A DNA stretch of 33,032 nt, from positions 1 to 33,032 of IMG/VR virus record IMGVR_UViG_3300017726_000035; one strand, given 5' to 3'. Made by a program: the position numbers and the translations under genes. Below, in pieces: positions 20,418 to 22,631 of this stretch. The notes under the pieces are model-generated. The model did no database searches. It saw nothing but the letters and a program-made list of their open reading frames with translations, and was not told the origin of the DNA. Source of the stretch: a virus. Position 1 is the first letter of the stretch; every line of letters starts with the position of its first letter.

Positions 20418-21606
20418 ATTCAATATATTTTATAATCCAACTAGATACTTTCTTTTAACAGGAGGTCGTGGCTCTGGTAAATCTTTTGGAGTAGCTCTAA
20501 ATGTATTACTGCTATCACTAGATAATAAGTTCCAACAAAAAATATTATTTACTAGATATACATTAACCTCAGCAAGAATATCAATTATTCCAGAGTTCAA
20601 AGAGAAGATTGATTTAATGGGTTGGAATGATAACTTCCACATAACCAATAATGAAATAACAAATTTAATCACTGGAGCAAAGATATTGTTTAGGGGTATT
20701 AAAACTAGCTCAGGCGACCAGACAGCAAATCTTAAATCATTACAAGGTATTACTACTTGGGTAATTGATGAAGCTGAGGAGATGGTAGATGAAAACATAT
20801 TTGACAAAATAGATTTTTCAGTTAGACAACAAGGTTCTAAAAACAGAGTAATAATGATTATGAATCCATCAACTAAGGAGCATTGGATATATAAAAGATT
20901 TTATGAGTTGTCAGGTGTTCCATCTGGATTTAGTGGAATTAAAGATGATACTACATATTGCCATAGTACTTACTTAGATAATATTGATAATCTCTCTGAG
21001 AGTTATATCCAGAGAATAGAACAAATGAAAGTCAGGCGACCAGAAAGATATAAGCATACTATTGAGGGTGCTTGGCTTGATAAAGCTGAGGGAGTTATTT
21101 TTACACGTTGGGAGATAGGAGAATACAGAGAGATAGGACCTACAGTTCTAGGTCAAGACTTTGGATTTTCGTCAGACCCATCAACGCTTATCATGACTAG
21201 TATTGATAAGGATAATAAAAGAATATATATTAAAGAATGTTTTTACGAAACTAAATTAACAACCAGTCAGATAGCTGTATTAAATAAAAAGTTTGCAGGA
21301 GATAATCTTATTGTTGGAGATTCTGCAGAACCTAGATTAATCCAAGAGTTGTCTAGAGAATGTAATATTGTTGCCAGTATTAAAGGACAGGGTAGTGTTA
21401 ATTTTGGTATCTCATTATTACAGGATTATGACTTAATTATTGATTCAAGTTCGATTAATGTTGTCAAAGAATTGAATAACTATGTATGGCTTGAGAAGAA
21501 AAGTTTAACTCCATGTGGTTCATTTAATCACACTTTGGATGCAATTCGTTATGCTGTAAGCTATCAATTACAGAATCCAAACGTGGGTGAATACTACATT
21601 CATTAA
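20404..21606 (+). CDS. terL: Terminase large subunit, 400 aa
   Basis: The ATPase domain shows Walker A GGRGSGKS (residues 20-27) and Walker B WVIDEAEE (119-126; D122, E123). MIMNPSTKEHW is the coupling strand. The C-terminal RNase H-like nuclease has three acidic positions in the usual setting: D252 in GQDFGFSSDPS, D306 in IVGDSAEP and D379 in NHTLDAIRYAVSY. Length (400) is on the short side of the usual 400-550. It docks on the portal and pumps DNA into the head. The portal gene is distant (3372), an uncommon order, and the putative structured RNA lies directly downstream. Confidence 0.93.
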   Translation: MLNPKFNIFYNPTRYFLLTGGRGSGKSFGVALNVLLLSLDNKFQQKILFTRYTLTSARISIIPEFKEKIDLMGWNDNFHITNNEITNLITGAKILFRGIKTSSGDQTANLKSLQGITTWVIDEAEEMVDENIFDKIDFSVRQQGSKNRVIMIMNPSTKEHWIYKRFYELSGVPSGFSGIKDDTTYCHSTYLDNIDNLSESYIQRIEQMKVRRPERYKHTIEGAWLDKAEGVIFTRWEIGEYREIGPTVLGQDFGFSSDPSTLIMTSIDKDNKRIYIKECFYETKLTTSQIAVLNKKFAGDNLIVGDSAEPRLIQELSRECNIVASIKGQGSVNFGISLLQDYDLIIDSSSINVVKELNNYVWLEKKSLTPCGSFNHTLDAIRYAVSYQLQNPNVGEYYIH

Positions 21607-21637
21607 AAAAATTAACAGAGGTAGAACAAAAAAAATT

Positions 21638-21689
21638 AAAAAAAGTTTGTTTGGGATTTGGAAGTTATAATTATAAATACATATATTTG
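21638..21689 (+). promoter_or_regulatory. Strong Bacteroidota-type promoter of the ncRNA
   Basis: TTG (21658-21660) and a perfect TATATTTG (21682-21689) are 21 bp apart, as in the Bacteroidota consensus. The upstream 24 bases (21638-21661; seven A, GTTTG, TTGGGATTTGG) match 22131-22154 with one mismatch. Such A-tract UP-like elements occur on highly expressed genes. The start should be near 21695. No good open reading frame follows. Confidence 0.78.
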
Positions 21690-21692
21690 TAC

Positions 21693-22022
21693 TGTAATTA
21701 ATTTTACAAGAGTTCTTAAACGTATTTAAAATCTAAAACAGCAAGGTAAAATTTGTTAATTTTGTGTAGTAGAGTTATATAGAAATATATAACAAGGAAA
21801 GAATCAAGATTGGAATAATAGTAAAGCTAACTATTAACGACCTTTAGTACAGGTCAGTCAGTACCAACGCGACACAAGAATAATAAAAAATCCTATTAGT
21901 CTGGGGATGCTAATTTCAAAATGCTAAAAGTCCCTAGTCATTTTAAACCACTTCCAAATAGTCAGTTGGCAAAAGACGTTACCTCGCCAGGGTATCTACT
22001 GCAGAACGGAAGTGGTTTTTTT
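21693..22022 (+). ncRNA. Putative structured noncoding RNA, about 330 nt
   Basis: A promoter at 21638-21689 and an intrinsic terminator at the other end frame a 330-base stretch with little coding signal. Helices by eye, in order: 21693-21697/21704-21708; 21716-21720/21725-21729; 21748-21753/21758-21763; an 8-bp GAAA-tetraloop hairpin 21774-21781/21786-21793; 21816-21822/21830-21836; 21839-21843/21851-21855; 21901-21907/21931-21937; and an 11-bp closing helix 21945-21955/22008-22018 around an inner stem 21967-21970/21986-21989. The 3' half is less AT-rich than the genome. CTATTA occurs at 21831-21836 and 21893-21898, and both can pair with 21816-21821, so alternative folds are possible. I recognise no known RNA class. 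Its place after terL invites a packaging-RNA idea, but regulation is equally open. Confidence 0.65.
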
Positions 22023-22023
22023 T
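21945..22023 (+). terminator. Terminator formed by the 3' domain of the ncRNA
   Basis: AAACCACTTCC (21945-21955) pairs perfectly with GGAAGTGGTTT (22008-22018), followed by a run of T to 22023. The loop is 52 bases and itself folds, so the terminator stem is the closing helix of an RNA domain rather than a simple hairpin. Confidence 0.78.
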
Positions 22024-22057: not shown

Positions 22058-22130
22058 TAGCATTAAGATAAGATAAGAAAAGAAAAGAAGATATGGCAGA
22101 GCTAGATGGCTCATAAAATGTAAGTATTAT

Positions 22131-22181
22131 AAAAAAAGTTTGGTTGGGATTTGGTTCGTATTGTATTTATATTTATACTTG
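22131..22181 (+). promoter_or_regulatory. Promoter of the 22207 gene, twin of the early promoter
   Basis: TTG (22151-22153) and TATACTTG (22174-22181) are 20 bp apart. The upstream 24 bases match the ncRNA promoter (21638-21661) with one mismatch. The GATTTGGTTCGTATT stretch at 22148-22162 matches the early promoter at 10144-10158. It therefore combines parts of both. The leader to ATG 22207 is A-rich (AAAAAAACAAACAAA). Confidence 0.7.
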
Positions 22182-22583: not shown

Positions 22584-22631
22584 AATACCAAGAGGCAGCC
22601 GATTTATTAGCGTAAGTCCTCAAATAATTAG

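Follow-up and report, generated by a model that had tools for sequence, protein, structure and literature searches.

Large structured RNAs carried by phages, GOLLD and ROOL among them, remain puzzles both in function and in how such large untranslated RNAs get made during infection. ROOL, found in phages and prophages, proved non-essential in one strain tested, and both GOLLD and ROOL are suspected to act on the host (PMC12286853). The expression of ribosomal RNA offers a further point of reference. BoxA is the binding site for NusB and S10 in rRNA leaders and in the nut sites of lambda, and in the leaders of rRNA operons it is preceded by a hairpin (PMC10250234, PMC4807359). In the literature we found no paper that links boxA to GOLLD, that describes boxA in the rRNA leaders of Bacteroidota, or that tests boxA in this phylum.

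The locus considered here lies in a stretch of viral DNA of 33,032 nt, hereafter the window. The host group of this virus is the flavobacteria; its TerL is about 54% identical to those of the Nonlabens phages P12024L and P12024S, which are flavobacterium phages. A cassette of about 330 nt (21693–22023, + strand) is sited between terL, whose stop codon is at 21606, and a downstream promoter. The preliminary description had located here an interval with no good gene, and this holds for place and content alike: there is no ORF of at least 50 amino acids from the terL stop to 22144, and no frame of the cassette bears a coding trace. We regard the cassette as an accessory phage RNA gene, an "RNA moron," with an rRNA-style boxA leader and, as a best guess, a stable host-acting RNA as its product, and we would assign this reading a probability of roughly 0.7. 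That the gene is a real RNA gene is argued by three partial homologies, which reside in the promoter and leader, the boxA head, and the 3′ domain.

The post-terL site is a gene-swapping slot, and the RNA cassette is an insertion there. The flank just 3′ of terL (ACAGAGGTAGAA, 21615–21626, +) is also found between terL and the cassette in contigs L201–L206 and L178, with ACAGGGGTAGAA in its place in L202. A purine-rich noncoding element (GCATTAAGATAAGATAAGAAAAG..., 22060–22094, +) forms the 3′ boundary. Because relatives without the RNA have this element directly after terL, the cassette can be placed between terL and the boundary. In two sets of 80 relatives, one for terL and one for the downstream gene, the spacing from terL to the next gene ranges from almost nothing to more than 1.4 kb, and the spacer holds varied promoter–ORF–terminator cassettes. 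The boundary element itself is strongly conserved 3′ of terL in dozens of relatives; it is possible that it is a packaging or recombination site. Beyond it, a second, separate promoter recognized from its sequence (TTTGG ... TATACTTG, 22150–22181, +) serves a small-ORF cassette and matches the first promoter at 75% across 63 nt. A AGAGGCAGCCGATTTATTAGCGTAAGTCCTC-like motif, present in the window at 22594–22622, recurs before the terminators of the small-ORF cassettes of relatives and displays apparent compensatory changes, GAGG/CCUC to GAGC/GCUC.

The layout of the slot bears on two alternative roles. A terminator at the end of the cassette, with co-oriented genes beyond it, would suit a cis-acting leader or attenuator that controls those genes, but they have a promoter of their own, and the cassette precedes the conserved boundary element; control of this kind is very improbable. 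The preliminary description had also raised the idea of a packaging RNA that works with TerL in the manner of the phi29 pRNA, an idea to which the adjoining terL gene and the strong folding of the RNA lend some appeal. Comparison with relatives leaves it unsupported. A pRNA is expected wherever its motor is kept, whereas the window RNA is absent from most terL relatives: in phages with related terL (about 50–77% identity) the slot mostly has other content or almost nothing. Moreover, the TerL of the window matches Terminase_3 and Terminase_3C, not the phi29 motor family, and it is a conserved DNA element, not an RNA, that stays beside terL. Since members of the family can dispense with the RNA, a role in packaging is highly improbable.

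The near-consensus promoter of the preliminary description was assigned to the right place but to the wrong kind. It is of the Bacteroidota type, not the E. coli type (21657–21689, +), with a −33 element, TTTG, at 21657–21660 and a −7 element, TATATTTG, at 21682–21689, both found by motif scan; TAnnTTTG is the −7 box of flavobacterial sigma-A (PMC9723704). Matches to the sigma-70 consensus are about as frequent in the window as chance predicts (25 against 23.3 expected). The Bacteroidota motif alone is not rare either, with four occurrences in the window against 2.1 expected; the promoter is convincing because it is conserved in relatives (L194/L206 and L201–L207). The transcript is predicted to start at about 21693–21697.

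At the 5′ end of the predicted transcript is a leader hairpin (TGTAA/TTACA, 21693–21708, +), conserved in the window and in the two types of relative described below, which is followed by a boxA-like element (AGTTCTTAAA, 21711–21720, +; AGTTCTTTAA in the relatives). Together the hairpin and AGTTCTTWAA resemble the NusB/S10 antitermination boxA, of which the window carries a variant with one substitution, GTTCTTAAA instead of GTTCTTTAA. The element begins about 18 nt 3′ of the predicted start, within untranslated transcript, a position in keeping with boxA-led stable RNAs. In Bacteroidota leaders the identification as boxA is a putative one, drawn from position and similarity.

A leader-pattern scan finds the promoter and 5′ leader in 10 IMG/VR contigs, in which 35 bases at the transcript start are identical; L194/L206 aligns with the window at 81% over 125 nt, spanning flank, promoter, and leader. 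Nine of the ten (L201–L205, L207–L210), phage contigs of the Bacteroidota type, carry in their terL slot a conserved structured noncoding RNA of about 440 nt, here called type A (for example L201:3196–3643, +). Five of these nine (L201–L204, L207) repeat the arrangement of the window, in which terL is followed by the flank, promoter, RNA, terminator, and next element. Seven base pairs of type A have changed on both sides, a number reached in none of 500 shuffles. The RNA ends in an intrinsic terminator, and the 5′ strand of its closing helix, a helix that rests on the alignment, is the leader itself. Scanning the slots of the relatives gave no match of type A to Rfam, and type A represents a covarying RNA family absent from that database. 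A covariance model of type A, R2, recovers all type A loci and finds no match in the window at E up to 5. The window RNA and type A therefore share a head but not a body: slot, promoter, leader hairpin, and boxA are the same, whereas the body of about 440 nt has no detectable relation to that of the window. No match to R2 was found in 397 Flavobacteriaceae genomes, a set with no positive genome as control. Type B (L206) has its leader in common with the window, and its body folds no better than chance.

The same head is found well beyond the terL slot. Scanning viral contigs for TATATTTG-N16-28-AGTTCTTTAA yields at least 120 matches, at least 25 of them intergenic; the intergenic matches listed mostly head type A or B, tRNA-Met, tmRNA, permuted tmRNA, and two orphan noncoding RNAs (L240:506–850, and L281, minus strand, about 1020–1219). 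The association with GOLLD and tRNA was measured on contigs retrieved by the boxA pattern itself, and for that reason boxA-less promoter sites in the same contigs are the fair control. Among the matches listed, a tRNA or tmRNA lies within 120 nt of 6 of 17 boxA sites and of 9 of 172 boxA-less promoter sites (p = 6.5e-4). At least seven promoter–boxA leaders (L221, L225, L229, L263, L270, L280, L303) precede a GOLLD RNA encoded on their own strand by 0.7–1.3 kb, an interval free of long genes, and lead to it by way of tRNA-Met or, in L221, of tmRNA. In flavobacterial chromosomes the head stands before tRNA operons (L361, L365, L368) and one rRNA-type promoter (L366), and flavobacterial rRNA leaders carry a sister form, RGTTCATTRACATATTG. 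Because the same head precedes tRNA, tmRNA, GOLLD, and host RNA operons, the leader is best read as a host-type boxA head of untranslated RNAs. That the cassette starts with a segment of the sort used to drive ribosomal, transfer, and giant GOLLD RNAs argues in turn for a genuine RNA product over empty DNA. In one viral contig, a permuted tmRNA match (L223:6775–6993; Rfam RF04321, just above cut-off) lies directly 3′ of a promoter–boxA leader.

The helices listed in the preliminary description are all present at high pairing probability: an 8-bp helix with a GAAA loop (21774–21781/21786–21793), helices of 7 bp (21816–21822/21830–21836) and 5 bp (21839–21843/21851–21855), and the closing helix of the 3′ domain. 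The two CTATTA copies with a single partner (21816–21821) are likewise found. Missing from that list was the most important helix, a long-range pairing of about 17 bp (21752–21770/21869–21887), mostly with p > 0.9, that encloses a three-hairpin domain. Pairing probabilities delimit a central domain (21744–21894, +) in which this helix, together with 21744–21746/21892–21894, surrounds hairpins 21774–21793, 21816–21836, and 21839–21855. Next comes a hairpin with a GGGGAU/GUCCC core (21899–21939, +), whose main-stem pairing probabilities are 0.86–1.0. About 25 nt separate boxA from the start of the long helix, which, unlike the type A closing helix, does not include the boxA strand itself. In a gapped-duplex test, pairing of the boxA segment in a closing helix reaches significance in L240 and L281 alone, and not in the window or type A; in L240 and L281 the closing helix begins at boxA (2 and 0 of 200 shuffles, respectively).

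The segment 21638–22023 folds with z = −3.25 and the predicted transcript with z = −2.67, one shuffle in 100 being equally stable in each case. Since the reverse strand has almost the same stability (z = −2.2), the fold alone is not decisive, and since no homologue of the body was found, the central fold is without covariation support. The Rfam scan that had been proposed as a check gives no match to the window RNA, whether at the gathering score or with E relaxed to 10. A blastn search of phage and plasmid records returns only short AT-rich matches, and exact 16–27-mers of the body in viral contigs are either absent or fall within unrelated sequence. Only chance matches emerge from blastn searches of about 720 flavobacterial genomes (Weeksellaceae-type and Flavobacteriaceae, part of the family) and from a single-sequence covariance model, R1, run on 397 of them. 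The best two matches to the RNA in flavobacterial genomes were inspected and dismissed as chance. Against about 168 terL-slot loci, R1 matches the window alone. The label "orphan" thus suits the body and the Rfam result but not the whole cassette, for the promoter–leader and the 3′ domain have relatives.

The 3′ domain (21945–22023, +), delimited by pairing probabilities and sequence, is probably the terminator. The 11-bp closing helix that had been said to double as a terminator is indeed present (21945–21955/22008–22018) and runs into a T8 tract (22016–22023). Within the 3′ domain, AAATAGTCAGTTGGCAAAAGACGTTACCT (21956–21984, +) matches, at 26 of 30 bases, the core of a small-RNA/terminator hairpin that occupies the same slot in many relatives; the match scores 38, whereas 60 shuffles of the whole window peak at 31, and none of 2000 shuffles of the RNA reaches it. 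That hairpin, of about 70–90 nt with core AGTCGGCAAAAGAGCGTT, occurs in L126, L134, L138, L142, L143, and others, just before the post-terL gene. Its stem covaries by eye (AGGTA/TACCT, GTAGG/CCTAC, GGTGAA/TTCACC), and the loci scanned gave no Rfam match to it.

It might be argued that the cassette is a degenerate remnant, a promoter and terminator whose gene has decayed and which is transcribed without function. Such an origin would account for a body that has no homologue found, and the slot does hold many disposable cassettes, one of them decayed-looking in L017; the type B body, too, is not stably folded. Decay of a gene is nevertheless rather unlikely, given that coding traces are absent in all frames, that the fold has a z of about −3, that the leader retained is of the RNA type and not the ORF type, and that the 3′ domain is homologous to a conserved small RNA. 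The 3′ region also bears on the possibility of a long antisense or target-pairing RNA, regulating phage or host mRNAs, in which the structured body would serve mainly for stability. Possession of its own promoter and terminator is in keeping with such a function, and 21938–21960 is 88% complementary to 25 nt of a phage gene (3838–3862, minus), at an E of 0.011 for this genome that may be chance. However, the complementary stretch overlaps the terminator stem, and an RNA with a long central helix and a leader of the rRNA type is more suggestive of a structural role, so that a pairing function seems unlikely.

The reading preferred here is an accessory RNA gene. Judged from its sequence, the window RNA looks like a mosaic of a boxA head, an orphan structured body, and a recycled terminator domain, and the same evidence supports independent transcription of a structured RNA from its own promoter to its own terminator, as the preliminary description had proposed. 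Host polymerase would start near 21693–21697, and boxA, to judge by the anatomy of the leader, would recruit host NusB–S10 as the RNA emerges; binding of NusB here is suggested by analogy. NusB–S10 would then permit a high-level untranslated transcript without Rho termination and could aid closure of the long-range helix, as on rRNA. The transcript would end at 22016–22023 and persist as a stable folded RNA. Our best guess, held with modest confidence, is that this RNA may act on the host, in translation or defence. We prefer action on the host to a part in building the particle, since phages whose packaging and head genes are the same manage without the RNA; roles as a host-regulating RNA or a defence decoy are both possible.

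A broader proposal is more tentative, and we hold it at somewhat less than even odds. Bacteroidota phages may possess a class of rRNA-style RNA genes in which a promoter and hairpin–boxA leader are joined to interchangeable bodies (GOLLD, type A, the window RNA, L240, L281) that are matured via closing helices like pre-rRNA; the terL-adjacent site would swap such RNA morons, and the promoter–boxA signature would find them. If this is correct, the shared head would explain how large phage RNAs are transcribed, the signature would reveal unknown RNA genes in phages of a dominant marine and gut phylum, and a role for host NusB in phage RNA expression would be directly testable.

Among known systems, GOLLD (RF02032) is likewise a large structured noncoding RNA of phages, and in at least seven viral contigs with Bacteroidota-type promoters it has the same kind of promoter–boxA head. 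It is often longer than 800 nt, as against 330 nt for the window RNA, and its conserved 3′ domain has no covariance match in the window (gathering score or E up to 10). The window contains no tRNA or tmRNA, and both the tRNA-island setting of GOLLD and an upstream tRNA are absent. The window RNA resembles ROOL in being phage-borne, large, and structured, but it is about half as long and lies in another genomic setting; neither ROOL nor other large phage RNAs in Rfam have a covariance match in the window. With the boxB–boxA antitermination leaders of rRNA operons (rrnTAC; lambda nut) the window shares an order of elements, namely a hairpin and boxA, with the 5′ strand of a long-range helix further on (in the window, about 25 nt beyond boxA), and elements of this kind also occur in the tRNA and rRNA operons of flavobacterial hosts. 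The difference is that in the window this leader, its boxA altered by one substitution, drives a single orphan RNA.
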